Below, one piece after another: positions 18,003-34,239 of a stretch of DNA of 64,000 nucleotides (its first letter is position 1; the number at the start of each line of letters is the position of its first letter). Under the pieces are notes generated by a model. That model was not told the origin of the DNA and did not search any database. It worked only from the letters and a program-made list of their open reading frames with translations. The position numbers and the translations under genes are program-made. The DNA lies in the NCBI GenBank assembly GCA_020852815.1, contig JADZAN010000014.1, positions 1 to 64,000 on the forward strand, given 5' to 3'. Source of the stretch: Gemmatimonadaceae bacterium (GTDB lineage: Bacteria; Gemmatimonadota; Gemmatimonadetes; Gemmatimonadales; Gemmatimonadaceae).

Positions 18003-19601
18003 CTACTGCGTCGCCGTCGGCTTGGGACGCGTCGAGCGGTTTCCCAGCACCACCCCCGCCTCGTACATCAACGCGCCGATGCGCGCCATCTTTGGATAGT
18101 TGATCAGCGCCGCCTCGTCCGTCACCTGGTGGTACTGCGGGTGCAGCCCGGTGGTGAAGAAGACGATCGGGATCCCCTTGCGGGCGTAGTTGAAGTGGTC
18201 GCTGCGGTAGTAGATGCGCTCCGGGTGCGTCGTCGTGTCCCACTCGCGGTTGAAGGTGAAGGGGCGCGCCTGCGCCGCGTTCACCGAGTCGATCACCGCA
18301 CCCAGCACCGAACTCTGCCCGTTCGGTGCCGCCCCGGGCCCAACGATGTACAGCGAGTCGTCGCCATTGCGCCCCACCATGTCGGCGTTGAGCTGGGCGA
18401 CGATCGAGTCGAGCGGGACGGTGGGGTTGGTCGTGAAGACGTCGGAGCCGAACAGCCCTTTCTCCTCGCCCACGTGCCACACGAAGAGCACGGAACGCTT
18501 CGGCTTGGGCCCCTGCGCGAAGGCGCGCGCCACCGACAGCTGCAACATGCTGCCGGAACCATCGTCATCGGCGCCGTTGGCGATGGAGTCGCCGTTCACC
18601 GCTGGCTGGATCCCGATGTGATCATAGTGCGCGCCGTAGGCGACGTACGTGTTCCGCAAGGCCGGGTCGGTCCCGCGCACGATCCCTACGACGTTGTAGC
18701 CGTTGAACGGCTGCGTGGTCTGCTTCACCGACGCCACCAGGCGCGTCCCTGCCGGCACCGTCGACTGCTCTGCCGACGGCCAGGCGGCGGGCACGAGCGG
18801 CGAGCCGGAGGCCAGGCGCGCCACTGCGACCATGGGCAAGGGGCGCGCCGCCCCTGCCGGCGAGGCGCCGCGCGCCAGCTCCACCGGGCTCCCCGAGAAC
18901 TGCCCCGCCGCCATCTGGAAGATCGAATCGGGAAGAAGCAGGACAATCGCCGCCGGGCCGCGACCAATGGCCGCTCCCAGCCGGCCAAAGAGCGCATCCG
19001 CGCCCTGCATCGATTTGCGCCTGGCGGAGTCGACCCCCGCTGGCACGGCCCCCGCAATCACTACCACCTTTCCCTTCACGTCGAGCCCCTTGTAGTCGTC
19101 ACGCCCCAACCCGGCATCGATGATCCCGTAGGACGCAAAGACGACATCCGCATCCACCGACAGCTTGGGGAGCGGGGCGCCCGGGCCAAGGGACGTCAGG
19201 AGCAGGAAGTCGTTGCCCAGGCGCAGCGCGCGCCGGCCACCCGGCGTGACGACGACGATCGAGTCGGCGGCCAGGGTCGACCTGCGCATCGGAACGCGCT
19301 GGAAGTAGCCGCTGTCGCCCGCCGGCTCCACGCCCAGCGCCGTCAGGCGCCGCGCAATCCATGCCGCGGCCCGATCGGCATCCGGCGTCCCCGTCTCGCG
19401 CCCGCGAAACGAGTCCGCCGAGAAGGCGAAGAGGTCCGCGCGCAATTCGTTCACGTTAGGTTCGAGGCTCGCCGGCGCCGGCGCCGCCACCACCCTGGGC
19501 GACGGCGAACACCCCGCCAGCAGCAATCCACCCATCACCGCCACCACCCCAACCGCGCCCCGCCCCGTACGCATCCGTCCCATCCGTCGCATCCTACGCA
19601 T
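18003..19601 (-). CDS. M28-family metallopeptidase lipoprotein with PA domain
   Basis: A 532-residue exported zinc peptidase. The signal ends GGLLLAGC, a lipobox, so it is membrane-anchored. Residues about 150-300 look like a PA (protease-associated) insert (YKGLDVKGKVVVIAGAVP). The catalytic part shows the M28 ligand motifs YGAHYDHIG, ADDDGSG, GEEKGLFGSD and a C-terminal YRSDHFNYARKGIP. M28 enzymes are aminopeptidases or carboxypeptidases, fitting the peptide uptake genes in the window. The start ATG at 19599-19601 has GAGGG just upstream; three further in-frame ATGs follow closely, so the exact N-terminus could be up to nine residues shorter. Confidence 0.92.
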   Translation of the reverse strand: MRRMRRMGRMRTGRGAVGVVAVMGGLLLAGCSPSPRVVAAPAPASLEPNVNELRADLFAFSADSFRGRETGTPDADRAAAWIARRLTALGVEPAGDSGYFQRVPMRRSTLAADSIVVVTPGGRRALRLGNDFLLLTSLGPGAPLPKLSVDADVVFASYGIIDAGLGRDDYKGLDVKGKVVVIAGAVPAGVDSARRKSMQGADALFGRLGAAIGRGPAAIVLLLPDSIFQMAAGQFSGSPVELARGASPAGAARPLPMVAVARLASGSPLVPAAWPSAEQSTVPAGTRLVASVKQTTQPFNGYNVVGIVRGTDPALRNTYVAYGAHYDHIGIQPAVNGDSIANGADDDGSGSMLQLSVARAFAQGPKPKRSVLFVWHVGEEKGLFGSDVFTTNPTVPLDSIVAQLNADMVGRNGDDSLYIVGPGAAPNGQSSVLGAVIDSVNAAQARPFTFNREWDTTTHPERIYYRSDHFNYARKGIPIVFFTTGLHPQYHQVTDEAALINYPKMARIGALMYEAGVVLGNRSTRPKPTATQ

Positions 19602-19843
19602 TCGCCCTCGATCGTTGATGGTGTCCGTCCCCCGCCGCACCGCCCCTCCCACGCCCCCCCGTGCCCCTCCCGCCCCCCCTCCCCCCCCGACAGCGCAACG
19701 GGCCGATCCCCAGGACCGGCCCGCAGTTTCTCGGGAATACCCCCACCCCAACCCTCCACCCCCACCTTCGCTGGGGCAGGCTTCTCGTCCCCAGCCTTCG
19801 CTGGGGCAGGCTTCTCGTCTTCCCGTCCTCTCGTCTTCTCCCC
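19602..19843. other. Gap with C-tracts, hairpin and two palindrome repeats
   Basis: This 240-bp gap between two minus-strand genes has a pyrimidine-rich tract (19625-19690) and a hairpin CGGGCCG/CGGCCCG (19699-19705 with 19717-19723), a likely terminator of the small membrane protein gene. It also has two copies of the dispersed palindrome (variant at 19759-19776, full at 19789-19806) with TCTCGTC arrays up to about 19843. No gene is supported. Confidence 0.6.
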
Positions 19844-20071
19844 CTAAACCGACGCCGCCCCCGACCACCGCTCCCGCAGCCGGCGCGCCGTGTCGGGCGA
19901 GACCACGCGAATGACGAGGTAGATGATTCCGCCGAAGATGGCGATCTTCACCGCCAGCGCGAGCAGGCCAAGCAGAAGCCCGAAGAACACGCCGAATACG
20001 CCAAAGAACAGCTTGAGCAGGAACAGCCCGCCAATGGCGAACAGCCCGATCATGAGAATGGTGCGAAGCAT
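19844..20071 (-). CDS. Small membrane protein
   Basis: A 75-residue protein, almost entirely hydrophobic: MLRTILMIGLFAIGGLFLLK, then FFGVFGVFFGLLLGLLALAVKIAIFGGIIYLVIRVV, ending in a charged tail (DTARRLRERW). Two to three membrane helices with phenylalanine and glycine spacing. ATG 20069-20071 has GGAG 9-10 nt upstream, better than the TTG five codons earlier. The function is not recognisable. Confidence 0.75.
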   Translation of the reverse strand: MLRTILMIGLFAIGGLFLLKLFFGVFGVFFGLLLGLLALAVKIAIFGGIIYLVIRVVSPDTARRLRERWSGAASV

Positions 20072-20200
20072 GGTTCCGGACTCCAATTCTAGGACTGCAC
20101 ACTGTACGCGACCGCCGCGGTCACGGTTTCACGGCGCGTGGACCCACTCCTCCATCACAACGGAGCTCCGACGTCGCTCCAATCTCGCGAGCCTCGCCGC

Positions 20201-21304
20201 ATGACGTCCAGTGATTTCCTCGACGTCGTCGTGATTGGCGACGGCCTCGTGGGGCTCGCCAGCGCCCGGGCCTGTGCGGCTCGCGGGCTCTCCACCGCCC
20301 TCGTGGGAAAGCGCCGCCCAGGCCTGGGCTCGGCCGCCGCCGCCGGTTTCCTCGCCCCCACGATCGAACCCGCTCGCGGCGCCGCGCTCGCCTTCACCCT
20401 CGCCGCCCGCGAGCACTACGCCGGCTACCTGAACGAATTGCAGCAGCTCACGGGACACTTCGTCCCCTTCGCCCTCGACGGCATCCTGCGCCTCCCGGCC
20501 ACGGAGCGCGATGCCGAAGCCTGGGCCGGCGCCGCCGATCCCTTCTCGACCTGGCTATCGCCCAGCGAGGTGTCGGTGCTCGAACCCGCGCTGCACGCCC
20601 CGCTCGGCGCCCGCTTTCACGACGGCGACGGGATGGTCGACAACCAGCGCCTCCTCCACTCGCTCGGCGAGGCGGTCGCGTTAGGCGGGGTGCAGCTCGT
20701 TGTCGGCGACGCCCGCCGCATCGAAGTCATCGGCGATCTCGTCGCCATCGAGGTCGCCGGAGGGCCGCGCCTCCGCACGCGCCGCGTCGTCATCGCCAAC
20801 GGCCCGTGGGCGCCCCTCCTCGACGGAACGCCGCGCGCGATCCCCGTTCGCCCCCTTCGCGGCCAGATGATGGCGCTTGCCGGAACGCCGGTGTCACGCC
20901 CTGTATTCGGCGCAGGCGGTTACGTCGTCCCGCGCGCCGCCGACCGACAGGTCTTCGTGGGAAGCACCTCCGAGGCGGTCGGCTACGAGCTTGGGACGAC
21001 CGATGCCGCGCTGACGGGCTTCCGCGAGTCGGCCGGACGACTCGTCCCCGCCCTGGCCCGCGCCGACGAGGTCCGCATCTGGTCCGGGCTGCGCCCCATG
21101 ACACTGGATGGGCTCCCCATCGTAGGCCCCGACCCCGACCATTCGTGCGTCATCTACGCCTGCGGACACTCCCGCAACGGGATCCTGCTGGCACCGCTCA
21201 CCGGTGAGGTGGTGGCGGCCCTGGCCTCGGGCTCTCCCGTCGACTTTGACCTCACCCCGTTCTCCATCGCACGCTTTCCCGCGGGAACGGGCACAATCGC
21301 ATAA
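20201..21304 (+). CDS. thiO: FAD-dependent glycine oxidase / D-amino-acid oxidase family
   Basis: A 367-residue DAO-family flavoenzyme. The N-terminal FAD-binding motif is VVVIGDGLVGLASARACAAR. The C-terminal part shows IWSGLRPMTLDGLPIVGPDP and YACGHSRNGILLAPLTGE, typical of ThiO glycine oxidases that make iminoglycine for the thiazole ring of thiamine. No other thi gene is present here, so another small-amine oxidase role is possible. The start ATG 20201 gives MTSSDFLDVVVIG; the frame is open 21 residues further, but these are unlike the family. The stop codon lies inside a CATAACCG inverted repeat. Confidence 0.82.
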   Translation: MTSSDFLDVVVIGDGLVGLASARACAARGLSTALVGKRRPGLGSAAAAGFLAPTIEPARGAALAFTLAAREHYAGYLNELQQLTGHFVPFALDGILRLPATERDAEAWAGAADPFSTWLSPSEVSVLEPALHAPLGARFHDGDGMVDNQRLLHSLGEAVALGGVQLVVGDARRIEVIGDLVAIEVAGGPRLRTRRVVIANGPWAPLLDGTPRAIPVRPLRGQMMALAGTPVSRPVFGAGGYVVPRAADRQVFVGSTSEAVGYELGTTDAALTGFRESAGRLVPALARADEVRIWSGLRPMTLDGLPIVGPDPDHSCVIYACGHSRNGILLAPLTGEVVAALASGSPVDFDLTPFSIARFPAGTGTIA

Positions 21305-21331
21305 CCGCTCAGCGTGCGAATAACGGTTATG
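21300..21331. promoter_or_regulatory. Inverted repeat CATAACCG...CGGTTATG
   Basis: Perfect 8-bp arms at 21300-21307 and 21324-21331 separated by 16 bp, overlapping the thiO stop. The right arm ends 7 bp before the predicted lipA -35, so it may be an operator. As RNA it could also be a weak terminator, but it lacks a T-run. Confidence 0.45.
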
Positions 21332-21337
21332 GCATCT

Positions 21338-21366
21338 TTGCCGCCTCGTCGCACGACGGGTAGATT
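21338..21366 (+). promoter_or_regulatory. Promoter of lipA
   Basis: TTGCCG (21338-21343), 17-bp spacer, TAGATT (21361-21366). The predicted start is near 21373, leaving a leader of about 70 nt before ATG 21442. Confidence 0.6.
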
Positions 21367-21441
21367 GCCGCACCGATTTGGAGAGCGGCGGCCCCCTCGT
21401 TCCGGGGTCCTCCCTGCTCACACCGCTCCATCCAGCCGCGA

Positions 21442-22359
21442 ATGTCGGATACGCTGCACCAGATCATGGGTCGCCACCGCGCGGAACCGCTCCCCGAGCG
21501 GAAACCGTCGTGGCTCAAGGTGAAGGCTCCCGGCGGCGAGAACTACGTCCGCCTCAAGGGGCTCATGAAGGAGCTCAACCTCCACACCGTGTGCGAGGAA
21601 GCGCACTGCCCCAACGTCGGCGAATGCTGGCAGCACGGGACAGCCACCTTCATGATCCTGGGCGACGTCTGCACCCGTAACTGCGGATACTGCGCGGTTG
21701 CCCACGGTCGCCCCCCGAAGTACGACCTCGACGAACCGAACCGCGTGGGCGCCGCGATTGCCGAGATGCGCCTGCAGCACGCCGTCATCACGTCGGTCGA
21801 CCGCGACGACCTTCCCGACTACGGCGCCTACATCTTTGCCGAGACCATCCGGCAAATCCACCAGCGCCTTCCGGGGTGCTCGGTGGAGGTACTGGTCCCC
21901 GACTTCCAGGGGAATGAGGACTCGATCCGCGCCGTCCTCGACGCGGGGCCGGACATCTACAATCACAACACGGAGACCGTCCCGCGCCTGTACAAGCGCG
22001 CCCGCCCCGGCGGCCGCTACGAGCGCGTGATGAACATCTTCCGCTACGCCAAGCAGGTTGCCCCGCACATCCCCACCAAGACGGGAATGATGGTGGGCCT
22101 TGGCGAGACGATGGAGGAACTGGTCGTCGTGATGCGCGACCTGCGGGCGGTCGACGTCGACATTCTCACGCTCGGCCAGTACCTCCGCCCTTCTGACGGA
22201 CACCTCCCGCTCGACCGATACTACTCGCCGGAGGAGTTCCGGGAGCTGCGCACCATCGGCATGGAACTCGGCTTCCGGCACGTCGAGGCCGCCCCGCTCG
22301 TGCGTTCCAGCTACCACGCCTGGGAGCAGGTACAAGCCGCGGCTGCGGCGGGGAAATGA
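21442..22359 (+). CDS. lipA: Lipoyl synthase
   Basis: Radical SAM enzyme that inserts two sulfurs into the protein-bound octanoyl chain. The 305 residues carry the auxiliary cluster motif CEEAHCPNVGEC (C51, C56, C62), the radical SAM motif CTRNCGYC (C77, C81, C84) and the C-terminal RSSY that ligates the auxiliary cluster. All expected residues are present. It has its own promoter. Downstream the PDH genes (pdhA, pdhB, pdhC) follow in the same direction, giving lipoyl synthesis and use side by side. A perfect inverted repeat at 22373 separates it from pdhA. Confidence 0.97.
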   Translation: MSDTLHQIMGRHRAEPLPERKPSWLKVKAPGGENYVRLKGLMKELNLHTVCEEAHCPNVGECWQHGTATFMILGDVCTRNCGYCAVAHGRPPKYDLDEPNRVGAAIAEMRLQHAVITSVDRDDLPDYGAYIFAETIRQIHQRLPGCSVEVLVPDFQGNEDSIRAVLDAGPDIYNHNTETVPRLYKRARPGGRYERVMNIFRYAKQVAPHIPTKTGMMVGLGETMEELVVVMRDLRAVDVDILTLGQYLRPSDGHLPLDRYYSPEEFRELRTIGMELGFRHVEAAPLVRSSYHAWEQVQAAAAAGK

Positions 22360-22372
22360 GAACATGAAAATC

Positions 22373-22415
22373 GGGGTCAGAGTCACCGAACCAAATTCTC
22401 GGGGACTCTGACCCC
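22373..22415. repeat. 12-bp perfect inverted repeat after lipA
   Basis: GGGGTCAGAGTC (22373-22384) and GACTCTGACCCC (22404-22415) with a 19-nt loop, 14 nt after the lipA stop. There is no T-run. It may terminate lipA transcription. The GGGGTCAGAGTC form also resembles dispersed palindromes I associate with REP elements in other genomes; this is from memory and not checked. Confidence 0.6.
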
Positions 22416-22560
22416 AAATCGCTCAGAACGCGGGTACGTCGTCCACCGGGACGCGGTTGCCGCTAGGGCTTCCGCGAGCATCCCAGCAGCTCACATCCGA
22501 GCGCGCCAGAGCGTGCGCCACGGTGACCGGGTGCCAGCCTCGGCATCCGACTCCTTGACC

Positions 22561-23583
22561 ATGGCGAAGAAGAAAACCGAGACCAAGACCGCCGACGCCT
22601 CCGTCGGCCAGACCGACGCGCCAACGCGCGCCGCCCTGCTCCACTCCATGCTCCTGCAGCGCCGCTTCGAGGAGCGCTGCGCCGAGGCCTACGCGTTAGG
22701 CAAGATCGGCGGTTTCTGCCACCTCTACATCGGGCAGGAAGCGTGCGGCACCGGCGCCATCTCGGTGCTGCGCCCCGACGACTACGTCATCACGACCTAC
22801 CGCGACCATGGGCAGGCGCTCGCCCGCGGCATCACCCCACGCGCCGTCATGGCCGAGCTGTTTGGCCGCAGCGACGGCTGCGCGCGCGGCAAGGGCGGCT
22901 CGATGCACCTCTTCGACCGCAACACGAACTTCCTGGGCGGTCACGGCATCGTGGGCGGTCACGTCCCCGTGGCAACCGGCGTCGGCTTCGCGATCAAGTA
23001 TCGCGGCACCGACCAGGTCATCCTCTGCTTCATGGGCGAGTCGGTGGTGAACACCGGGGCCTTCCATGAGGCGCTGAACATGGCGGGGCTGTGGAAGCTC
23101 CCGGTGGTCTACATCATCGAGAACAACCGCTACGGGATGGGGACCGCGCTCGAGCGCGCCTCGGCCATCCACGACATCTACCAGCGCGGTGCCGCGTACG
23201 ACATGCCGCGCGCGCAGGTCGATGGGCAGGATGTGCTCGCCGTCCGTGCCGCGGTCGCCGAGGCGGTGCACCGCGCCCGCACCGAGTCGCTCCCGACGCT
23301 CCTCGAGGTGCGCACGTACCGCTTCATGGGACACTCCATGTCCGACGCGGTGAGCGGGACGTACCGGTCCAAGCAGGAGCTGGAAGAGTACATGAAGCGC
23401 GACCCGATCCACGTGCTGCGCGCGCACATGGAAGCGTTAGGCGAGATGGACGACGCGGGGATGGAGACACTCGACGCCGAGGTGAAGGCGATTGTCCAGG
23501 ACAGCTGGGACTTCGCCGACGCCAGCCCCGAGCCGGCGCTGGAGAGCCTGTGGGAGGACGTGCTGGTGGAGACGACGACATGA
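22561..23583 (+). CDS. pdhA: Pyruvate dehydrogenase E1 component, alpha subunit
   Basis: Thiamine-diphosphate enzyme subunit that decarboxylates pyruvate (340 residues). YRDHGQALARG, GKGGSMHLFD, GGHGIVGGHVPVATGVGFA and WKLPVVYIIENNRYGMGT are characteristic of E1-alpha. The ThDP/Mg motif, normally GDG...NN, reads GESVVNTGAFHEALNMAG, so Asp is replaced by Glu and the second Gly by Ser. The phosphorylation-loop-like segment is YRFMGHSMSDAVSGTYRS. Start ATG 22561 (MAKKKTETK) follows a non-conserved open stretch. pdhB follows after 81 bp of pyrimidine-rich repeat DNA. Confidence 0.92.
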   Translation: MAKKKTETKTADASVGQTDAPTRAALLHSMLLQRRFEERCAEAYALGKIGGFCHLYIGQEACGTGAISVLRPDDYVITTYRDHGQALARGITPRAVMAELFGRSDGCARGKGGSMHLFDRNTNFLGGHGIVGGHVPVATGVGFAIKYRGTDQVILCFMGESVVNTGAFHEALNMAGLWKLPVVYIIENNRYGMGTALERASAIHDIYQRGAAYDMPRAQVDGQDVLAVRAAVAEAVHRARTESLPTLLEVRTYRFMGHSMSDAVSGTYRSKQELEEYMKRDPIHVLRAHMEALGEMDDAGMETLDAEVKAIVQDSWDFADASPEPALESLWEDVLVETTT

Positions 23584-23664
23584 GCGGATTCGATCGCGCG
23601 CTCCCGCGCGCCGTGCCCTCCCCCGTCTTCTCGTCTTCCCGTCTTCACGTCCTCTAGAGGATTC

Positions 23665-24648
23665 ATGCCGATCATCACATACCGCGACGCCTTGAACCAG
23701 GCGCTCCGCGAAGAGATGCAGCGCGACGATCGCGTCTTCCTCATGGGTGAGGAAGTGGCGGTCTACCAGGGCGCCTACAAGGTGTCCAAAGGATTGTTGC
23801 AGGAGTTCGGCGAGATGCGCGTCGTCGACACGCCCATCACCGAGCTGGGCTTCGCCGGCGTCGGCGTGGGCGCGGCGATGGCGGGGCTGCGCCCGGTCAT
23901 CGAGTTCATGACCTGGAACTTCGCCCTCCTCGCCCTCGACCAGGTGGTGAACGCCGCCGCCAAGATGCTCTACATGTCGGGGGGCCAGTACCCGATGCCG
24001 ATGGTCTTCCGCGGCCCCAACGGCGCCGCGTTGCAGCTGTCGGCGCAACACTCCCAGGCTTGGGAATCGTGGCTCGCCCACATCCCGGGACTCAAGGTCG
24101 TCACCCCGGGCACCCCCTACGACGCCAAGGGACTCCTCAAGGCCGCCATCCGCGACGACAACCCGGTGGTCGTCCTCGAAGGGGAAATGCTCTACAACAC
24201 CAAGGGCGAAGTCCCCGAGGACGACTACATCGTCCCCATCGGGAAAGCCGAGGTGAAGCGCGAGGGCGACCACTGCACCGTCGTCACGCACGGCAAGTCG
24301 GTCCTCGTGGCGCTGCAGACCGCCGACGCCCTCGCCAAGGAAGGGATCCGCGTCGAGGTCGTCGACCTGCGCACCGTGCGCCCCATGGACGTGGAGACGA
24401 TCGCCGCATCGGTCCGCAAGACCAACCGCGCCGTGGTCCTCGAGGAAGGGTGGGAAGTCTGCGGCGTCGGGGCCCAGGTGGTGGACTACATCCAGCGCCA
24501 CTGCTTCGACGACCTGGACGCGCCAATCATCCGCGTGCACCAGGAAGACGTCCCCATGCCCTACGCAAAGAGCCTCGAGCGCGCGGCCAAGCCCGATGTC
24601 GCCAAGACGGCCGCCGCCATCAAGCAGGTGATGTATGTGGGGGCTTGA
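23665..24648 (+). CDS. pdhB: Pyruvate dehydrogenase E1 component, beta subunit
   Basis: Partner of PdhA, completing the ThDP site (327 residues). MPIITYRDALNQALREEM opens like all E1-beta chains. VFLMGEEVAVYQGAYKVSKGL, DTPITELGFAGVGVGAAM and the transketolase C-terminal part (VEVVDLRTVRPMD) are visible. ATG 23665 has AGAGG four nt upstream at 23656-23660. The 81-bp gap after pdhA contains the TCTTCTCGTC pyrimidine array seen near the dispersed palindromes. Confidence 0.96.
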   Translation: MPIITYRDALNQALREEMQRDDRVFLMGEEVAVYQGAYKVSKGLLQEFGEMRVVDTPITELGFAGVGVGAAMAGLRPVIEFMTWNFALLALDQVVNAAAKMLYMSGGQYPMPMVFRGPNGAALQLSAQHSQAWESWLAHIPGLKVVTPGTPYDAKGLLKAAIRDDNPVVVLEGEMLYNTKGEVPEDDYIVPIGKAEVKREGDHCTVVTHGKSVLVALQTADALAKEGIRVEVVDLRTVRPMDVETIAASVRKTNRAVVLEEGWEVCGVGAQVVDYIQRHCFDDLDAPIIRVHQEDVPMPYAKSLERAAKPDVAKTAAAIKQVMYVGA

Positions 24649-24673
24649 GTCGCACCCGCGCCGCCCCGTCTCT

Positions 24674-24691
24674 CCCCAGCCGTCGCTGGGC
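24674..24691. repeat. Dispersed palindrome copy between pdhB and pdhC
   Basis: One copy of the family, CCCCAGCCGTCGCTGGGC (last base changed), followed by CAGGC and CCGTCTCCCGTCT. It sits within the 72-bp pdhB-pdhC gap, so the element lies inside an operon. Confidence 0.75.
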
Positions 24692-24720
24692 CAGGCTTCC
24701 CCGTCTCCCGTCTAGCTCAT

Positions 24721-26067
24721 ATGGCAACCAAGGTCTTCATGGAGGCGCTCTCCCCAACGATGGAGGAAGGGCGCCTGGTCAAGTGGCTCCGGAACGAAGG
24801 CGACGCCGTCAAGAACGGTGAGACGCTCGCCGAGGTCGAGACGGACAAGGCGATCATGGAACTCGTCGCCCGCGGCGACGGGATCCTGCGCAAGCGCCTC
24901 ATCGCCGAAGGGGCCACCACGCCCGTCGGCGCGCTGATCGGCATCATTGCAGCTGCCGACGAGAACATCGACGCCCTGCTCGGCGGCGCCCCCGCCGCGC
25001 CGGCGAGCACCGCCGCCGTTCCGGCGGCGCCCCCGGCAGCTGCACCGCCGGCCGCCGCGCCAGCCGCTCCGCCAGCCGCTCCGCCAGCTGCACCTTCCGC
25101 GGCAGCGTCGCCATCGCCGGCCCCGGCTCCGGCAGCGCCCAGCGCCGCCACTCCCATCCCCGCCGACGACGCCCGCCAGCGCTCCTCCCCCCTCGCCCGC
25201 CGCCTCGCCGCCGACCGCGGCATCGCGTTAGGCGCGGTCCACGGCTCCGGCCCCGGCGGCCGCATCATCAAGCGCGACGTCGAGGCCGCGGCAACCGGCA
25301 CGGCAACCGGCGCGCCCAGTGGCGCGTCGGCGGCGCCGTCCGCCGCTGCCGCCCCCCGCTCCCCGTCGCTCGTCCCGACCGGCGACGCGTTCCGCGACGT
25401 CGCGTTGACGCAGATCCGCAAGACGATCGCCCGCCGACTCGCCGAGTCCATCGGCCCGGTGCCGACGTTCTACCTCACCGCCGAGTTCGACATGGAACGC
25501 GTCGCCGAGATGCGCGGCGCGATGGCGGAGCTGGGCGATGGCTACAAGGTCTCCTTCAACGACATCGTCCTCAAGGCGGTCGCCACGGCGCTGGCACAAC
25601 ATCCGGAATGCAACGCCCACTGGCTCGGCGACTCCATCCGCTACTGGAATCGCGTCCACATCGGGATGGCCGTCGCCATCGACGACGGACTCATCACCCC
25701 GGTGATCTTCGACGCCCACACCAAGGGGCTGGCGCAGATCGCCGCCGAGTCGCGCGACCTCGCCAAGCGCGCCCGCGAACGAAAGCTCAAGCCCGATGAA
25801 TACAGCGGCTCGACCTTCTCCGTCTCCAACCTCGGGATGTTCGGGATCGACCAGTTCACCGCGATCATCAATCCCCCCGAAGCGGGGATCGTCGCCATCG
25901 GCGGGATCGAGTCGAAGCCGGTGGTCGTGGGCGGCGAGATCCAGGTGCGCCGACGCATGCGCGTGACGATGAGCTGCGACCACCGCGTCATCGACGGTGC
26001 CTCCGGCGCCAAGTTCCTCCAGACGCTGCGGCGCCTGATCGAGAACCCGCTCCTTCTGGTGTACTGA
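24721..26067 (+). CDS. pdhC: Pyruvate dehydrogenase E2 component (dihydrolipoamide acetyltransferase)
   Basis: Core of the PDH complex (448 residues). One N-terminal lipoyl domain has the modified Lys43 in [10 protein letters not shown]. An Ala/Pro-rich linker (about residues 95-140) follows. Then comes a peripheral-subunit binding domain ([20 protein letters not shown]...[12 protein letters not shown], about 158-185), a second Ala/Pro linker and the catalytic domain, ending with the HxxxDG site in [16 protein letters not shown]. Only one lipoyl domain is present. The lpd gene (30013) is separated from the operon by the large metzincin gene. Confidence 0.95.
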
Positions 26068-26160
26068 TCCGGAGTGTTCCCCCGTGATCGGTGAGTCCGG
26101 CGCGCGCTTCGCCCCGCACATGCGCCGCCACCCGCCGGCGCATGTGCGGCCATGCCTAAC

Positions 26161-26176
26161 TGTGAGCTGGCTCACA
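26161..26176. promoter_or_regulatory. Perfect CRP-type binding site
   Basis: TGTGAGCTGGCTCACA is an exact match to the CRP consensus TGTGA-N6-TCACA, 12 bp before a TATAAT box. Its centre is about 32 bp before the expected transcription start, so it covers the -35 region, which has no TTGACA. This arrangement could be repressing or a non-standard activation site for a CRP/FNR-family regulator. Confidence 0.65.
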
Positions 26177-26187
26177 TTCGTCAGCGG

Positions 26188-26193
26188 TATAAT
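26188..26193 (+). promoter_or_regulatory. Consensus -10 box before metzincin gene
   Basis: TATAAT at 26188-26193, the only perfect -10 hexamer I noted. Predicted start near 26200, about 19 nt before a strong hairpin. No -35; the position is occupied by the CRP-type site. Confidence 0.6.
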
Positions 26194-26218
26194 GGATGAG
26201 CACGTTGCACGACGGCAC

Positions 26219-26268
26219 GCGCATGCGTCCTTGAGGGAGACGTTTCCCCCAAGGACGCATGCGCTTTT
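26219..26268 (+). terminator. Strong hairpin with T-run in leader (attenuator or sRNA terminator)
   Basis: GCGCATGCGTCCTT (26219-26232) pairs perfectly with AAGGACGCATGCGC (26251-26264), the stem extends inward (GGGA with TCCC), and TTTT follows at once. A transcript from 26200 would end here after about 65-70 nt unless read through. The ATG at 26259 lies inside the right arm, so it would be sequestered. Confidence 0.65.
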
Positions 26269-29200
26269 CGACCGCCCATCCCGTGGCGCCCCCGACGTGC
26301 GGAACGCCCTCCGCCGCGCCAACGGCGCCCGTGAGTCCCGACGCACTCCGCCACACCGCACACGTCGCCCGGCGCACGCGCCTGGCTCGTTCGCTTGCAG
26401 CTGCCGCCCTCACGCTCGGCGCCCTCGCGGCGACGGCGTGCGGGACGAGTGAAGGGGGAAACGCCACCGGATCGAACGGCCCCGACACGCCGAAGACCGG
26501 CGCGCTCACCGTCACCGTCGCCGGCGTTCCCGCCGGCTCGAGCGCGGCCATTCAGCTCACCGGCAGCGCGGGCTACGCGCGCACCATCAGCGCCACCGAG
26601 ACCGTGAGCGCCCTCGCCCCCGGCGCCTATGAGCTGTCCGCCAGCGACGTCACGGCTGGTGCCGACCGTTACGGCGCCACCCCGCGCACGCAAGGCGTGA
26701 CGATCACTGCCGGCGCGAGCGCCTCGGCCACCGTGGGATACGGAATCCTCACCGGGTCGTTGGCGATCACCGCCAGCGGACTCCCCACGGGGAGCACGAC
26801 GAATGTGCAGGTGACGGGGCCCGACAGCTTCGCGCGAACTGTCACGGCCGGGACGACGCTGGGTGGCCTCGCCCCCGGCGCGTATCGCGTCACCGCCGCG
26901 TCGGTCACCGTCGAGAGCCACACCTACACGCCGCAAGCAGCCACGCTGGATGTTGCCGTGGCAGCGTCCACGACGCCGGTCCCCGTCGCGGTCGCGTACC
27001 AGATCGCCTCGGGGGCGCTGATCGTCGGGGTAACCGGGCTCCCCGGCGGCGCCACCGCGCAGGCCGTGGTCACCGGCCCAGGCGGCTTCCAGAAGACCGT
27101 CGCCTCCGGCGAGCTCCTCTCGAATCTCGTTCCGGGACCGTATCTCATCACCGCCGCGCCCGTGACGGTGGGTATCGACGGCTATCGCGTGTCCGCCCCG
27201 GTCTCGGTGGCGATCGTCGCCTCCACGACCCCCGTGAGCGTTCCCGTCGCCTACGCGCTCGCCACCGGCCGACTGGCCCTCGCGGTTGGCGGGCTCCCTG
27301 CCGGCGCTGCGGCAGCGGTCACCGTCACCGGCCCGGGCGGCTTTTCCACGGGCATCACGGCCACCGACACGCTCGTCGCCCTTGCACCTGGCGACTACAC
27401 CATCGCCGCCACGCCGGTGGCCACCGCCACGCTCACCTACGGCCCCACGCCGGCCACGCAGGTCATCGCCGTCACCGCGGGGACCACGCCGGTTGCCGGA
27501 TCGGTCGACTACGCCGTCACGACGGGGAGCCTGCTCGTTACCATCACCGGGTTGCCGCAAGCCCTGGCCGCGAGCGTCACCGTCACCGGACCCGCCAACT
27601 ACTCGCAGCAGGTCGCCAACACCTCGACGCTCAGCAACCTCGCCCCCGGCACCTACACACTCACGGCAGCCAACGCCACCACCGGGTCGCACACCTACGC
27701 GCCGTCGCCTGCCTCTCGCAGCGTCACCGTCGTGGCTGGGCCGTCACCTGCAACAGCGGTCTTTGCCTACGCGCTCTCCACCGGGGGGATCCAGTTCGCC
27801 GTCAACGGCCTGGCGGGCAATGTCCCGGCCGACATCACGATCACCGGGCCGGGCGGCTACTCGCGGAACGTCACCGCGTCGCAGTTGCTCCTCGGCCTCA
27901 CCGCGGGGATGTACACCATCACCGCGCGCAATGTCGCCAGCGGCGCCAACGCCTGGGCCCCCAACCCGGCATCACAGAACGTCGCGGTCCCGGCGTCCAC
28001 CTTCACCGTCGATGCGGCGGTCACCTACGTGACCGCGATCGGGGCGCTCACCGTCACGGTGAACGGCCTCCCGGGCGGCGTGAACGCCGCCGTCACCGTC
28101 ACGGGCGCCGGCGGCTACTCGCGCGCCGTGACGGCCACCACGACGATCACCGGCCTCGCCCAGGGGATCTACACCGTCAAGGCGAGCAGCGTGAGCAACG
28201 CCGGCACCACCTACACGCCCACTCCCGCCACGGGGAACGTTTCCGTCGGCGGCGGCGTGACGTCGACGGCAACGGTGTCGTACTCCGCATCGGCCCCGCC
28301 GCCACCGTCGTCGCTCAACCTGGTCATCGATGGGATGCACGTGCAGCAAGTCGTGCAGACCTACGGCGGCACGGTGCCACTCGTCGCCGGGCGCGACGGA
28401 CTGCTGCGCGTCTTCGTGAAGGCCAACATGGCCAACACCGCCACACCCACGGTGCGCGTCCGCCTCTACAGCGGCGCAACGCTCGCCAGCACCGTGAGTA
28501 TTCCCGCGCCGGGCACTTCCGTTCCGCAGACCATCACCGAGGGGACGCTGGCCTCGTCGTGGAACACCACGATCCCCGCCGCCCTCATGCAGAACGGGCT
28601 CAAGATCCTGGCCGACGTCGACCCGACCAACACCGTCACCGAGTCGTCCGACAGCGACAACAGCTATCCCGTCTCGGGAACCGCCGGCTCGATGGACGTG
28701 CGCAATGTCAGCACGCTCAGCGTGCGCCTGGTCCCCGTGCTGCAGAGCGCCAACGGCTTGCAGGGGAATGTCACGGCGGGCAATGCGACCCAGTTCACCG
28801 CCGACATCCTCAAGCTGTACCCGCTCACCCAGGTCGACGCCGAGGTGCGCGCACCCTACACAACGGCAGCGCCCGCGCTCCAGAGCGGCGATAACAACGG
28901 GGCCTGGCTCCAGATCCTGAGCGAGGTGAATGCACTCCGCACGGCCGACGCGAGTTCGCGCTACTACTACGGCGTCGTGAAGACGAGCTACGGGAGCGGC
29001 ATCGCCGGCCTCGGCTACGTGCCTGGACGTGCGGCGATCGGGTGGGACCACCTGCCGTCAGGCGCAAACGTGATGGCGCACGAAGTGGGGCACAACCTCG
29101 GGCGCTTCCACGCGCCAGGGTGCGGCGCGGGAGGGCCGGATCCCTCATATCCCAAGGCGACCGGGAGGCTCGAAGGCTACGGCTACAACATCGCCACCAA

Positions 29201-29909
29201 TGCGCTCAAGGACACGGCCGTCACCTACGATCTGATGAGCTACTGCAGTCCGGTATGGATCAGCGCCTACACATACTCGGCGATACTCTCCTATCGCGCC
29301 GCAAACCCATTCGTCGCCGCCGCGTCGGCAGTCGCGGGCTCGTACTCGCAGCGCGGGCTCCTGGTCTGGGGACGCATCCAGAACGGGCAGGTGATCCTCG
29401 AACCGACGTACGAGGTCGATGCGCCACCCTCGCTCCCGACCAAGGGCGGACGCAATCGCCTGCAGGGCTTCGGGCCGCTGGGCCAGCCCCTCTTCGACTT
29501 CACCTTTGATGGCGATCAGGTCGCCGATCACCCCGCGGGGAGCGCCGAACACTTCGCCTTCATCGTCCCGATGGGGATGATGGGGGGAACGTCGCCGACA
29601 CGCGTGCGCGCCAGCGCCGGCGCACGGCAGGCCGAGTATCTCTCGATCGCGTCCACCCCCGCGTCGGCGGCGGCGCCCGTGGTGCAACGCCTCAACTCGC
29701 GAGCCGTCCGCCTGCGGTGGAACGGCGCCGAGGCGAGAGGCGTGCTGGTGCGCCACCCGCGCACCGGGGAGATCCTCGCCTTCGCGCGCGGCGGCGACGC
29801 CGTGGTGTACACGGCGGAAGGGTCGCTCGACCTCACGCTTTCCGATGGGGTGCGCAGCGCCCGTCAGCGCGTGACTGTCGGGGCGCCCGGGGCGACGCCG
29901 CAACGCTAG
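26259..29909 (+). CDS. Giant repeat-containing metzincin-type metalloprotease lipoprotein
   Basis: Up to 1216 residues, probably exported. A signal-like stretch ARSLAAAALTLGALAATAC ends at a possible lipobox cysteine (about residue 66). Seven repeats of about 83 residues follow (each like GALTVTVNGLPGG...VTGPGGYSR...LAPGTYTITA...YTPTPATQ). A CARDB-like segment (VPLVAGRDGLLRVFVKA) comes next, then a zinc protease domain with HEVGHNLGRFH at residues 941-951 and a Met-turn LMSYC (M993). This HExxHxxGxxH plus Met-turn pattern defines metzincins. A C-terminal domain of about 200 residues is unassigned. ATG 26259 is buried in a hairpin; GTG 26331 is an alternative start. It lies between pdhC and lpd with its own promoter. 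Likely role: cell-surface degradation of protein, inferred. Confidence 0.85.
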   Translation: MRFSTAHPVAPPTCGTPSAAPTAPVSPDALRHTAHVARRTRLARSLAAAALTLGALAATACGTSEGGNATGSNGPDTPKTGALTVTVAGVPAGSSAAIQLTGSAGYARTISATETVSALAPGAYELSASDVTAGADRYGATPRTQGVTITAGASASATVGYGILTGSLAITASGLPTGSTTNVQVTGPDSFARTVTAGTTLGGLAPGAYRVTAASVTVESHTYTPQAATLDVAVAASTTPVPVAVAYQIASGALIVGVTGLPGGATAQAVVTGPGGFQKTVASGELLSNLVPGPYLITAAPVTVGIDGYRVSAPVSVAIVASTTPVSVPVAYALATGRLALAVGGLPAGAAAAVTVTGPGGFSTGITATDTLVALAPGDYTIAATPVATATLTYGPTPATQVIAVTAGTTPVAGSVDYAVTTGSLLVTITGLPQALAASVTVTGPANYSQQVANTSTLSNLAPGTYTLTAANATTGSHTYAPSPASRSVTVVAGPSPATAVFAYALSTGGIQFAVNGLAGNVPADITITGPGGYSRNVTASQLLLGLTAGMYTITARNVASGANAWAPNPASQNVAVPASTFTVDAAVTYVTAIGALTVTVNGLPGGVNAAVTVTGAGGYSRAVTATTTITGLAQGIYTVKASSVSNAGTTYTPTPATGNVSVGGGVTSTATVSYSASAPPPPSSLNLVIDGMHVQQVVQTYGGTVPLVAGRDGLLRVFVKANMANTATPTVRVRLYSGATLASTVSIPAPGTSVPQTITEGTLASSWNTTIPAALMQNGLKILADVDPTNTVTESSDSDNSYPVSGTAGSMDVRNVSTLSVRLVPVLQSANGLQGNVTAGNATQFTADILKLYPLTQVDAEVRAPYTTAAPALQSGDNNGAWLQILSEVNALRTADASSRYYYGVVKTSYGSGIAGLGYVPGRAAIGWDHLPSGANVMAHEVGHNLGRFHAPGCGAGGPDPSYPKATGRLEGYGYNIATNALKDTAVTYDLMSYCSPVWISAYTYSAILSYRAANPFVAAASAVAGSYSQRGLLVWGRIQNGQVILEPTYEVDAPPSLPTKGGRNRLQGFGPLGQPLFDFTFDGDQVADHPAGSAEHFAFIVPMGMMGGTSPTRVRASAGARQAEYLSIASTPASAAAPVVQRLNSRAVRLRWNGAEARGVLVRHPRTGEILAFARGGDAVVYTAEGSLDLTLSDGVRSARQRVTVGAPGATPQR

Positions 29910-29941
29910 GCGGCGCCCTGCGCAGCCCCGCGGCAATGGCG

Positions 29942-29947
29942 TAGATT
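29942..29947 (+). promoter_or_regulatory. -10 box before lpd
   Basis: TAGATT at 29942-29947, about 65 nt before the lpd ATG. The -35 is weak (TGCGCA). It follows the metzincin stop by 32 nt, so lpd is likely transcribed on its own. Confidence 0.4.
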
Positions 29948-30012
29948 AGGGGTCGTCTCGCGCGCGGTTGCCGGAACGCCGGTGCGCGCCCTCACGCCAA
30001 CACCGACTCGTC

Positions 30013-31437
30013 ATGGCCTCGTACGACGTCATCTTCCTCGGCGGCGGCCCCGCCGGATATGTCGGCGCCATCCGCTGCGCCCAACTCGGACTCTCCACCG
30101 CCGTCGTCGAGCGCGAAGGGCTCGGCGGTACCTGCGTGCTCTGGGGATGCATCCCGGCCAAGGCGCTGCTGGAGAGCGCATCGCTCGCCAACAAGGTGCG
30201 GCATGCCGACGACTTCGGGGTGAAGATCGGCGGGGAGATCGGGTTCGACTACAACGTGGCGATGAAGCGTTCGCGCGGCGTGTCGAACCAGAACTCGAAG
30301 GGGGTCGAGTTCCTCTTCAAGAAGAACAAGGTCACCTGGATCAAGGGGACGGGAAAGATCGTGAAGGCGAGCGCCGGCGCCGCCGCCACGCTCAGCGTGA
30401 AGGGTGCCGACGGCAAGGAAGAGAAGCACGACGCGAAGAAGGCGCTGGTCGTCGCGACCGGCTCGCGCGTGCGCGGCCTTCCGCAGATCGGGCTCGAACT
30501 CAACAAGTCGACCGTCATCTCCTCCGACGAGGCACTGACGCTGGAGCGCGCGCCGAAGTCGATCGCCATCGTCGGCGCCGGCGCCATTGGCTGCGAGTTT
30601 GCCGACGTCTTCAACGCCTTCGGCAGCGACGTGCACCTCCTCGAGGCGCTCCCCGCGATCCTCCCCCTCGAGGACGCCGACTGCAGCGCCGAGCTGCAGC
30701 GCGCCTTCAAGAAGCGGAAGATCAACGTCACCACCGGCGCGAAGATCTCCAACGTGAAGGTCGGAAAGTCGAGCGTGTCGTTGTCGGTCGAGGCTAGCGG
30801 TGCAAAGCAGGACCTCACCGTCGACCAGGTGCTGGTTGCCGCCGGGCGCGCACCGAATGTGGAGGACATCGGGCTCAAGGAACTCGGTGTGCAGCTGACG
30901 GATCGCGGCTTCATCAAGGTCGACACCACGACCTACCAGACGTCGGTGAAGGGGATCTACGCCATCGGCGACGTGATCGGCGCCCCGATGCTCGCCCACA
31001 AGGGATCGCGCGAGGGGCACATCCTGGCCGAGCTCCTCGCCGGGCAGCACGCGCACGCGCTCAATTACGGCAACATCCCCAACGCCACCTACTGCCATCC
31101 GGAAGTCGCCTCCATCGGACTCACGGAGCAGCAGTGCAAGGACAAGAAGCTCGAGTACAAGGTCGGCAAGTTCCCCTTCTCTGCGAACGGGCGCGCGCGC
31201 ACGTCCGGCGAGACCGAGGGCTTCGTGAAGATCATCCGCGACGCCAAGTACGGGGAGATCCTCGGCGCGCACATCGTCGGCGCGCATGCCACGGAGATGA
31301 TCCACGAGCTGGCTGTGGCCCGGGAGAACGAGTTCACCGTCGAGGAGATCGACCTGGCCATCCACGCCCACCCAACGCTGTCGGAGGCGGTGGCCGAGGC
31401 CGCGCTCGATTCGTTAGGCAAGATGATACATGCGTAG
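30013..31437 (+). CDS. lpd: Dihydrolipoamide dehydrogenase (E3)
   Basis: FAD enzyme that reoxidises lipoamide of PDH, other 2-oxo acid complexes and GcvH using NAD+. The 474 residues contain the FAD motif GGGPAGYVGAI, redox-active Cys41 and Cys46 in GGTCVLWGCIPAK, the NAD motif IVGAGAIGCEFADVF, the second FAD motif GIYAIGDVIG and the C-terminal active-site HAHPTLSEA. ATG 30013 gives MASYDVIFLGG; an extra 15 codons upstream are not family-like. A very strong terminator hairpin follows directly. Confidence 0.97.
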   Translation: MASYDVIFLGGGPAGYVGAIRCAQLGLSTAVVEREGLGGTCVLWGCIPAKALLESASLANKVRHADDFGVKIGGEIGFDYNVAMKRSRGVSNQNSKGVEFLFKKNKVTWIKGTGKIVKASAGAAATLSVKGADGKEEKHDAKKALVVATGSRVRGLPQIGLELNKSTVISSDEALTLERAPKSIAIVGAGAIGCEFADVFNAFGSDVHLLEALPAILPLEDADCSAELQRAFKKRKINVTTGAKISNVKVGKSSVSLSVEASGAKQDLTVDQVLVAAGRAPNVEDIGLKELGVQLTDRGFIKVDTTTYQTSVKGIYAIGDVIGAPMLAHKGSREGHILAELLAGQHAHALNYGNIPNATYCHPEVASIGLTEQQCKDKKLEYKVGKFPFSANGRARTSGETEGFVKIIRDAKYGEILGAHIVGAHATEMIHELAVARENEFTVEEIDLAIHAHPTLSEAVAEAALDSLGKMIHA

Positions 31438-32362
31438 TGGGACGGGCGACGGGAACGCTCGCCTCAGCGAAAGCAGGGGGGAGACGGGAGAGGGGCGCGC
31501 GGAGCGCGCCCCTCTTTCGTTTCCGGAAGCGACGGGCACCACCGCCACCCCCACCCCCACCCCCGCCCCGCCCCCCCGCGAGCCGCAACGCGGCGAGCAC
31601 TCCCGTCTCCCGTCTCCCGTCCCCCGTCCGCTTTTCCTCGTCGACGCCGGCCACCTGCCCTACGGTCAGGCGCTCGAGCTGCAGCGCGCCGTTGCCCGCG
31701 CACGCATCAGCGGCGCGCTGACCAACGACGTCCTCCTCTTCGTGGAGCACCCGAGCGTCATCACGCTCGGGCGCTCGTCGAAGGATGGCCACCTCGTGGC
31801 CTCGGATGCGCTGCTGGCCGCGCGCGGTGTGGAGCGATTCGAGGTGGACCGCGGCGGCGACGTCACCTACCACGGACCGGGACAGCTCGTCGGTTATCCC
31901 ATCCTCGACCTCAAGGAGCACCGGCAGGACCTGCATTGGTACCTGCGGCAGCTCGAGGAGGCGCTCATCGTGGCGCTGCGCACCTTTGGGATCGAGGGGG
32001 CGCGGAGCACCGGCTACACCGGCGTATGGGTGGGCGACCGGAAGATCGCGTCGATCGGCGTACACGCACGCGACTGGGTCACCTGGCACGGCTTTGCCCT
32101 CAACGTCACCACCGACCTGTCGTACTTCGACCTCATCGTCCCCTGCGGGATCCCCAACGTGGTCATGACCTCGGTGGAGCGCGAACAGGCTGCCGGCACG
32201 GGAGCGGTTGGCCCGGCGCCAGGCGCAGCGCCAGGCGCGCTGCTGCCGCGCGTTGCGGACGCTGTCGCCACCAGCATGGGGACGGTCTTCTCGCGCGCGG
32301 TCATCCGCCACCCGCTCGAGTCGCTTCTGGGGTCGCTGCAAGCGCTGGAACGCTCCGCGTGA
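31430..32362 (+). CDS. lipB: Octanoyltransferase LipB with repeat-derived N-terminal extension
   Basis: Transfers octanoate from ACP to lipoyl domains. The core, from about PLFLVDAGHLPYGQALELQR (residue 68 on), carries DVTYHGPGQLVGYPI, the lysine motif GDRKIASIGVHARDW and the cysteine motif VPCGIPNVVMTSVE, all expected for LipB. The only ATG/GTG/TTG in frame before the core is ATG 31430, which overlaps the lpd stop. The 67-residue leader it would add is purine-repeat and Pro/Thr sequence, and it contains the lpd terminator hairpin. The real start is probably a non-AUG codon near 31600. A LipM-type enzyme at 4794 may back it up. Confidence 0.85.
   Translation: MRSGTGDGNARLSESRGETGEGRAERAPLSFPEATGTTATPTPTPAPPPREPQRGEHSRLPSPVPRPLFLVDAGHLPYGQALELQRAVARARISGALTNDVLLFVEHPSVITLGRSSKDGHLVASDALLAARGVERFEVDRGGDVTYHGPGQLVGYPILDLKEHRQDLHWYLRQLEEALIVALRTFGIEGARSTGYTGVWVGDRKIASIGVHARDWVTWHGFALNVTTDLSYFDLIVPCGIPNVVMTSVEREQAAGTGAVGPAPGAAPGALLPRVADAVATSMGTVFSRAVIRHPLESLLGSLQALERSA
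31489..31520 (+). terminator. Intrinsic terminator after lpd
   Basis: AGAGGGGCGCGC, loop GGA, GCGCGCCCCTCT: perfect 12-bp stem at 31489-31515, followed by TTCGTTT. One of the clearest terminators in the window. It lies within the nominal lipB frame. Confidence 0.75.
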
Positions 32363-32448
32363 GCGGTGAGGCCCGCGGTGCGCCGTACCCTGTGGAATAG
32401 CTGAGGAATGAACTTCGGCGAGGGGTGGGGTATGTGGTTCAGCTCGTG

Positions 32449-32454
32449 TAGATT
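32449..32454 (+). promoter_or_regulatory. -10 box before small lipoprotein
   Basis: TAGATT about 59 nt upstream of ATG 32513; the -35 is not clear. Confidence 0.35.
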
Positions 32455-32512
32455 TCGCGACCGGCCCAGGCAGCACGCCGATCATAGACCCGCCGCACTC
32501 CCTCGACCATCC

Positions 32513-32911
32513 ATGCGCGTTCACCCATCGCGCCGCGTCGCCACCTTCGCGACTGCCGCGCTCCTCGCCCTCCTTGCCTCCGCCTGCACCGATAGCCGCG
32601 TGCGGGAGCTTACCCTCGGCATCAGCAAGGACTCCGTCTTCAAGATCATCGGACAGGGAGCCCCCGCTGGCGACTCGCTCCCCAACGTCTACAAGCGCGT
32701 CCAGTACTTCGTGGACAGCAAGTTCTTCGACATCTTCCTCTTCGACCCGCAGAACCGAAAGGTCTGGGAGGAGCCAAACGTCCTCGACAAGGAGCTGACG
32801 CCAATCGTCGTCATCCAGGACAAGCTCGAGGGAACGGGCTGGGGGTACGCGGATGAACTCGCGGGGAAGTACAAGTTCCAGATCCGCTCCACGAAGGCGG
32901 CGACCAAGTAG
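32513..32911 (+). CDS. Small lipoprotein, BamE/SmpA-like pattern
   Basis: A 132-residue exported lipoprotein: MRVHPSRRVATFATAALLALLASAC, lipobox LASAC with Cys25. The mature part starts RVRELTLGISKDSVFKIIGQGAP, a pattern (LxxGxxKxxVxxxxGxP) seen in the SmpA/OmlA (BamE) fold and related small outer-membrane lipoproteins, but homology is not certain. The start ATG 32513 is chosen because the signal peptide begins there; the frame is open 35 residues earlier without protein character. Confidence 0.75.
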   Translation: MRVHPSRRVATFATAALLALLASACTDSRVRELTLGISKDSVFKIIGQGAPAGDSLPNVYKRVQYFVDSKFFDIFLFDPQNRKVWEEPNVLDKELTPIVVIQDKLEGTGWGYADELAGKYKFQIRSTKAATK

Positions 32912-32952
32912 TCGGTAGTGCGCGGCGCGACCGGCTCCCGGTCGCGCTCGTG

Positions 32953-32994
32953 GCACCACCAGTCACGCACCACCAGTCACGCACCACCAGTCAC
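32953..32994 (+). repeat. 14-bp tandem repeat, three perfect copies
   Basis: GCACCACCAGTCAC repeated at 32953, 32967 and 32981, in the gap between two convergent genes. No coding role. Confidence 0.9.
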
Positions 32995-33045
32995 GCGCCT
33001 CCAACAGCGCGACACCTACCACCCGCCAGCCGCCACGCCCCCCGA

Positions 33046-34239
33046 CTACGGCGTGTAGCCGAGCCGTAGCCAGCGAAGCTCCCACGGCTCTCCCTCGGTG
33101 GGGCGATGCACCAGGAGCGAATCGCCGGCGAACAGGAGCACATGCGTGCGCCCGGGAAGGGCGAATCGATGCGACGGACGGCCGCCGTGCTCCGCCACGA
33201 TGTAGTTCACGCTGTCCTGCGTTGGCGTCGCGTATCCCGCCAGCAGCAAACGCCCCTTCGGCTCGATGACTATCCCCCCGAGCACGGGATGACGCTTCCC
33301 CGTGCGCGCCTGCATCGAGTCGAGGTCACCCGGCTTGAGCGATCCAGCCGGTGACAGGCGCGAGATCTCGTCGCGACGATTGGTGATGTCCTGCTCGCTC
33401 ACCGCCACGCCGGCTCGGTCGCTGGTCAGCGTCCACTCCACCTTGCCATCGAACGTGCGCCGCTGCACGAGGAAGGAGTCGGCCGGTGTCCAGACGATGC
33501 TGTGGTCCGCATCGATCGCGTAGCGCGGCATGGCCGGGAAGAGCGGCGTCGCATCCAGGGCATCACGCCCCTTCAGGCGAAGCCAGGGGAGCGGGAGGTC
33601 CAGCACCTTTGTCCCCCCAAGCTCCGTCTGGGAACGAAGGATCCGAACCCTGAGATGCGCCACGCCACTGTCGCCGTCGGCGCCAATGGACTGCAGCACC
33701 GGCGTCGAGCCGGCAAAGCCTGGCGCGGCGTTCTCTTCCGGGCGGGGGATGTTGTCCTCGCGGTCGAACGTCTGGTCTTCGTTGTAGCGCACCAGCTTCG
33801 TGCGCTGCATGTCGACAACGGCGATGCGCCCCTCGAGCATGCCGACGGCGGTGGCGTAGACGTACTGCCCAACCCTGTCGCCAAAGCTCCCCACCACCCT
33901 CCCCGTGGGGCTCTCCTTGTCCAGCAGCAAGACCGGATGCCCGGGCTCCCACACCACCACTCGGCTGGGCGTGAGCCAGTTGGCGACGGCGCTGCGCAGC
34001 GGGCAGGAATCATTCCCCATCGCCGTGCAGACCACCGGCCCTTCGGAGACGTGCGCCAGCGGTAGCGCGCCAAGCACGGAGTCGCTGACGAAGCGCGCAG
34101 GTCCATCGTTGCCCCCACCAGACTCGCGGCAAGCCGCCAGCCACAGGGCGGCAGAAACGGAAAGAAGTGCGTGCGCCGCGGCGCGACGCGCGCGTGCGCG
34201 CGGGCGGGCGGAGGCTATGGATGCGAGCCTGTGGTTCAT
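33046..34239 (-). CDS. Lipoprotein, possible beta-propeller
   Basis: A 397-residue exported lipoprotein. Signal SVSAALWLAAC gives a lipobox cysteine, followed by a short Gly-rich stretch. The body shows repeated beta-strand blocks (VVVWEPGHPVLLLDKESPTG, GRIAVVDMQRTKLVRYNED, YAIDADHSIVWTPADSFLVQ, GRLLLAGYATPTQD) like six-bladed propellers of the NHL/6-bladed type. No catalytic motif is seen. ATG 34239 has GAGG 5-6 nt upstream. The function is unknown. Confidence 0.75.
   Translation of the reverse strand: MNHRLASIASARPRARARRAAAHALLSVSAALWLAACRESGGGNDGPARFVSDSVLGALPLAHVSEGPVVCTAMGNDSCPLRSAVANWLTPSRVVVWEPGHPVLLLDKESPTGRVVGSFGDRVGQYVYATAVGMLEGRIAVVDMQRTKLVRYNEDQTFDREDNIPRPEENAAPGFAGSTPVLQSIGADGDSGVAHLRVRILRSQTELGGTKVLDLPLPWLRLKGRDALDATPLFPAMPRYAIDADHSIVWTPADSFLVQRRTFDGKVEWTLTSDRAGVAVSEQDITNRRDEISRLSPAGSLKPGDLDSMQARTGKRHPVLGGIVIEPKGRLLLAGYATPTQDSVNYIVAEHGGRPSHRFALPGRTHVLLFAGDSLLVHRPTEGEPWELRWLRLGYTP

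Follow-up and report, generated by a model that had tools for sequence, protein, structure and literature searches.

In phage T4, gene e is controlled at the level of translation by a hairpin over its start, and late promoters are located on the DNA that encodes the 5′ strand of this helix (PMC3014915). Long read-through transcripts of gene e, and also of soc, 49 and I-TevI, hide the start in the helix. The locus described here, at the junction of pdhC and a metzincin-type lipoprotein gene of a Gemmatimonadaceae bacterium, has a layout of the gene e type if the CGTC at 26226-26229 is part of a promoter: CGTC lies in the 5′ arm of a hairpin, and the ATG at 26259-26261 lies in its 3′ arm. The hairpin-over-start design resembles that of gene e. 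In contrast to gene e, however, the gene is chromosomal and its putative promoter is of the ECF type; moreover, a long G+C-rich stem is followed here by a T run, which suggests that termination may precede the block to translation. In IS10 and IS50, the transposase start becomes hidden when read-through RNA folds, whereas RNA from the promoter inside leaves it exposed. Unlike these cases, no mobile element was noticed at our locus, and the element sits between housekeeping genes. Class I and class II promoters controlled by Escherichia coli CRP carry a TGTGA-N6-TCACA operator, and the likeness here consists of a site of this form together with a genomic regulator containing the sequence SRETVSR. 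Finally, ECF promoters with a -10 element of CGTC and a spacer of ~16-17 bp have been documented (PMC3426412, PMC6767563). In ECF41 and Streptomyces sigma-E promoters, the -10 element and the spacer agree with those of the locus studied here, but the -35 element is GTTGC in our case and not TGTCACA or GGAAC.

The window, by which we mean the whole stretch of 64,000 nucleotides that was analysed, has a G+C content of 65-72%. The gene order at the locus is lipA, pdhA, pdhB, pdhC, metzincin, lpdA and lipB, where we take the first three to be lipA, pdhA and pdhB from recognition of their own translations. The pdhC gene, upstream of the metzincin gene, is the final one of the lipA-pdhA-pdhB-pdhC cluster. 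The features of the junction are as follows:

24721-26067, forward strand: pdhC, the E2 of pyruvate dehydrogenase (Pfam 2-oxoacid_dh, 2.3e-81; Biotin_lipoyl; E3_binding)
26114-26149, forward strand: first inverted repeat after pdhC, a 14-bp perfect stem with an 8-nt loop and without a T run
26161-26176, forward strand: CRP-type operator TGTGAGCTGGCTCACA (TGTGA-N6-TCACA), 0 mismatches, a single clear regulator of the CRP type being encoded in the genome
26188-26193, forward strand: TATAAT, a possible -10 box without a -35 box, not conserved in the same-genus copy
26204-26229, forward strand: candidate ECF-type promoter GTTGC-N17-CGTC, the top dyad in 8/8 spacers, with CGTC in the 5′ arm of the hairpin
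26219-26264, forward strand: hairpin GCGCATGCGTCC...GGACGCATGCGC, with arms 24/24 identical in the same-genus copy; only RNA whose 5′ end lies upstream of it can form it
26265-26268, forward strand: TTTT, a terminator-type tail directly after the stem (TTTTT in the same-genus copy)
26259-29909, forward strand: metzincin-type lipoprotein gene, with HExxHxxGxxH in its translation

The metzincin lipoprotein gene begins in the region 26161-26268. An earlier, sequence-only reading had named this gene a metzincin, and its translation contains the motif HEVGHNLGRFH. The N-terminal half of the protein consists of repeats of ~80 residues without a Pfam match. A Pfam search with the whole protein returned no families, an NCBIfam search returned a weak match to CpaA and nothing else, and a PDB search with the metzincin domain returned no matches. 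Among the best 80 of the 91 relatives of this domain, which were retrieved, the best named ones come from metagenome-derived Gemmatimonadetes or Gemmatimonadaceae genomes; the search for pdh genes nearby covered 42 of these 80. The metzincin gene is placed between pdhC and lpdA in the window, and these two genes are directly adjacent in three other genomes (G002, G011 and G117). On contigs of two further genomes (G098 and G124), a metzincin gene is present without pdhC alongside.

In the hairpin stem, 15 perfect pairs are followed by one mismatch and then by another 5 pairs. The sequence-only reading had reported 14 perfect pairs followed by TTTT, with the nominal ATG inside the stem, and both observations hold, the stem being one pair longer. 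RNA 26200-26270 (71 nt) folds with a free energy of -44.1 kcal/mol, compared with -21.0 kcal/mol (sd 2.7) for shuffled sequences (z = -8.5), and RNAs starting at 26234-26238 fold weakly (-9.9 to -12.0 kcal/mol). A terminator scan omits the hairpin because its rule calls for five T in eight positions and the window has four. The palindrome over the -10 element was found in two genomes, the second being the sole same-genus copy (G001). This genome is 74% complete, and its contig ends before the metzincin domain, so that the palindrome there presumably adjoins the metzincin gene on contig C408. Both arms are identical in the two genomes (12/12 and 12/12) and the T run after the 3′ arm is kept, while the loop has diverged and the flanks match at only 13 of 60 nt upstream and 15 of 40 nt after. 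In G001 the read-through RNA folds at -36.7 kcal/mol, as against -7.2 kcal/mol for the RNA from its own promoter. As the palindrome was seen in only two genomes, with identical arms, an RNA hairpin and a DNA operator are indistinguishable by covariation. A DNA search with the spacer in 60 genomes returned, beyond the window and G001, short and scattered matches.

To our eye, a motif composed of GTTGC and CGTC stood out in these spacers, and a search for dyads was run independently of that impression. This unbiased 5+4 search of eight pdhC-metzincin spacers, the window included, returned GTTGC-N16/17-CGTC as the top dyad, present in all eight. In dinucleotide shuffles (n = 100), the best dyad reached three spacers (83 times) or four (17 times), a contrast that is somewhat overstated since the spacers are related; the remainder of the spacers hardly aligns. 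The eight belong to nine close loci, of which the ninth (G029) was omitted, since it lacks the motif and its pdhC and metzincin gene nearly abut. When 30 pdhC loci were compared, the dyad was present in 8 of the 9 adjoining a metzincin gene versus 1 of the 21 without. GTTGC occupies 26204-26208 in the window. Every one of the eight close spacers shows the properties of an ECF-type promoter, namely a dyad spacer of 16-17 bp, CGTC as the -10 element and a position upstream of the start. The distance from CGTC to the ATG is 24-62 nt (29 nt in the window), and since this spacing fits in all eight, the ATG at 26259 would be the true start. We thus regard GTTGC-N17-CGTC as most likely the metzincin gene's own promoter, and we infer from its form that an ECF-type sigma factor reads it. 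ECF transcription starts ~7-9 nt after CGTC, which would put the start near 26236, in the hairpin loop and past the 5′ arm. GTTGC was not found in the literature as the -35 element of any named ECF group. In 17 more divergent pdhC-metzincin loci the dyad does not precede the gene, and the matches that two of these loci contain fall within coding sequence. In the genome itself, the motif with CGTCNT has 18 matches versus 7 for the control, a mild excess, mostly inside long open reading frames. A large regulon is not supported: a longer form of the motif with one mismatch gave 286 matches versus 186 for the control summed over 41 genomes.

On balance, we lean towards a model drawn from sequence that combines a promoter of the gene's own within the hairpin, an action of the hairpin on RNA from upstream, and control by a CRP-family protein. 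Transcription of the metzincin gene would begin in the loop near the position predicted above. The hairpin and its TTTT tail would act on RNA arriving from upstream, mainly read-through from lipA-pdhABC, which would be terminated at the hairpin, with the ATG buried in the 15-bp stem. Any RNA from TATAAT would likewise form the hairpin and be either terminated or left with its ATG buried. Transcripts initiated at the gene's own promoter would begin beyond the 5′ arm, could not form the hairpin, and would be translated from the ATG at 26259. The attenuation proposed by the sequence-only reading is thus retained in part: there is support for a hairpin that can halt transcripts or keep them silent, but the gene's own transcript would escape attenuation because its start lies inside the hairpin.

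The same reading had taken TATAAT as the promoter of the gene. Transcription would then start at ~26200 and meet the hairpin within 69 nt, yielding an attenuated gene or a small RNA of 65-70 nt, with CRP bound over the -35 position. The box is perfect and rare (one occurrence in the window, 0.49 expected), and the RNA that begins at 26200 folds far better than its shuffles. However, a sigma-70 scan of 19000-34000 returned no promoters, TATAAT having no -35 box, and TATAAT is missing in G001 although the hairpin is kept there. It is the GTTGC-N17-CGTC dyad that is conserved instead, and TATAAT is probably not the conserved promoter of the metzincin gene. A small RNA at 26200-26268 may still be made, but nothing conserved speaks for it. 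Rfam gave no match at gathering scores in the whole window, and a search of 26050-26450 at a loose threshold gave weak chance matches only. The position of the CRP-type site, considered below, also argues against a start from TATAAT, which we regard as unlikely.

The perfect TGTGA-N6-TCACA that the sequence-only reading had pointed out is indeed present, and it is the only CRP-type site in the window with at most one mismatch. At this stringency 0.84 sites are expected by chance, so the window alone cannot settle whether the site is genuine. The whole genome contains eight perfect sites compared with no matches to a reversed control pattern; three of the eight are of the TGTGAA type, resembling Rex operators, and five remain CRP-like. 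Summed over 36 genomes, CRP-type sites number 183 versus 12 for the control, an excess inflated by Rex-like sites. In relatives, sites of the form TGTGAA-N4-TTCACA precede rex-like genes (L242, L247, L255 and other loci). A single protein of the genome, encoded on contig C16, scores above the HTH_Crp_2 cut-off. Its best NCBIfam match is CRP PRK11753 (118 bits, under the model's cut-off of 266 bits), and its SRETVSR resembles the helix of CRP.

CRP-type sites recur upstream of GTTGC-N16/17-CGTC in four of the eight spacers, with 43 bp between the starts of the site and of GTTGC in the genome of the window (G000), 40 bp in G001, and 30 bp each in G078 and G112. The site is perfect in G078 and G112 and has one mismatch in G001; in a further genome (G013), a palindrome with two mismatches lies 29 bp before GTTGC. 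The site at 26161-26176 is probably genuine, and a CRP-family protein bound there probably controls the metzincin promoter. The regulator and the recurrence of the sites upstream of the dyad thus lend support to the CRP-family control suggested from the sequence.

The centre of the site lies ~67 bp upstream of the start predicted from the GTTGC-N17-CGTC dyad, or at ~-31.5 relative to a TATAAT promoter, neither being the class II position of E. coli CRP. The genome has a CRP class II promoter elsewhere (L275, G000:C46:58800-59800), with its site at G000:C46:59302-59317 before a small lipoprotein-like gene, MSGIRKLSAAALAAMALSACATKGY.... At that locus G000, G002 and G078 have TATACT at offset 37, where G001 has TATGTT. 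Offset 37 corresponds to class II spacing, in which the site centre is 41.5 bp upstream of the start. TATAAT in the window is at offset 27 and not 37, 10 bp too close for class II geometry. When the CRP site, 11 nt and TATAAT were searched together in 60 genomes with up to two mismatches, the perfect form was returned only from the window, and 8 of the 60 genomes had any match. In another family of the order, TGTGAAAGCGCTCGCAATCGTCAGGGGTATAGT (L012, G059:C52:709-741) resembles the CRP site, spacer and TATAAT of the window.

Downstream of pdhC, a strong stem is a frequent feature. In 16 of 26 metzincin loci, compared with 6 of 24 other loci, the best stem surpassed every one of 20 shuffles, and stem positions vary between genera. 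Both observations would fit the view that the pdh operon simply ends in an intrinsic terminator, which overlaps the start of the next gene by chance and has no regulatory role. Yet the arms are identical within the genus over the -10 element and the ATG while the remainder has diverged, and in five further genomes, too, a stem lies in or next to the region where the metzincin gene starts, which makes a mere terminator improbable to us. There is also little to recommend a DNA operator at which a dimeric repressor would sit over both the transcription start and the -10 element of the metzincin promoter: the inverted symmetry is perfect and the arms are conserved 24/24 while the loop differs, but a terminator-like T run directly follows the 3′ arm in both genomes, the half-sites are ~34 bp apart centre to centre, which is unusual for one dimer, and no regulator gene was noticed adjoining the palindrome.

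In four of the divergent pdhC-metzincin loci (L179, L182, L183 and L190), the codons for the signal peptide of the metzincin gene contain a terminator-like stem, whose letters differ between loci while pairing is kept. At L189 (G169:C19:5600-6900), a stem reaches as far as the metzincin ATG, where it ends, and CGTTTT comes next, similar to ATGCGCTTTT of the window. This pattern suggests repeated origin or movement of a stem overlying the start of the metzincin gene, although plain terminators in tight spacers could also account for it. In its fullest form, which we offer tentatively and with more doubt than confidence, the proposal is that of a self-exempting terminator. One palindrome would serve as terminator and start-codon trap for RNA of the neighbouring operon and, at the same time, as the -10 element and start of an ECF-type promoter activated by a CRP-family protein from ~-67, so that the secreted protease would be made only from its own promoter; in Gemmatimonadaceae, hairpins would have come to overlie the gene start in a similar way on more than one occasion where pdhC meets the metzincin gene. 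If true, logic of the type known from phage T4 and from insertion elements would operate in a chromosomal gene of a little-studied bacterial group, and terminator, promoter -10 element and start codon would be united in 46 bp. A literature search found no promoter or CRP study of Gemmatimonadota; the present analysis supplies a promoter candidate and a putative CRP operator for Gemmatimonadaceae. A different ECF-like dyad, GGAAC-N17-GTT, is seen directly after pdhC in L180, L191, L192 and L193.
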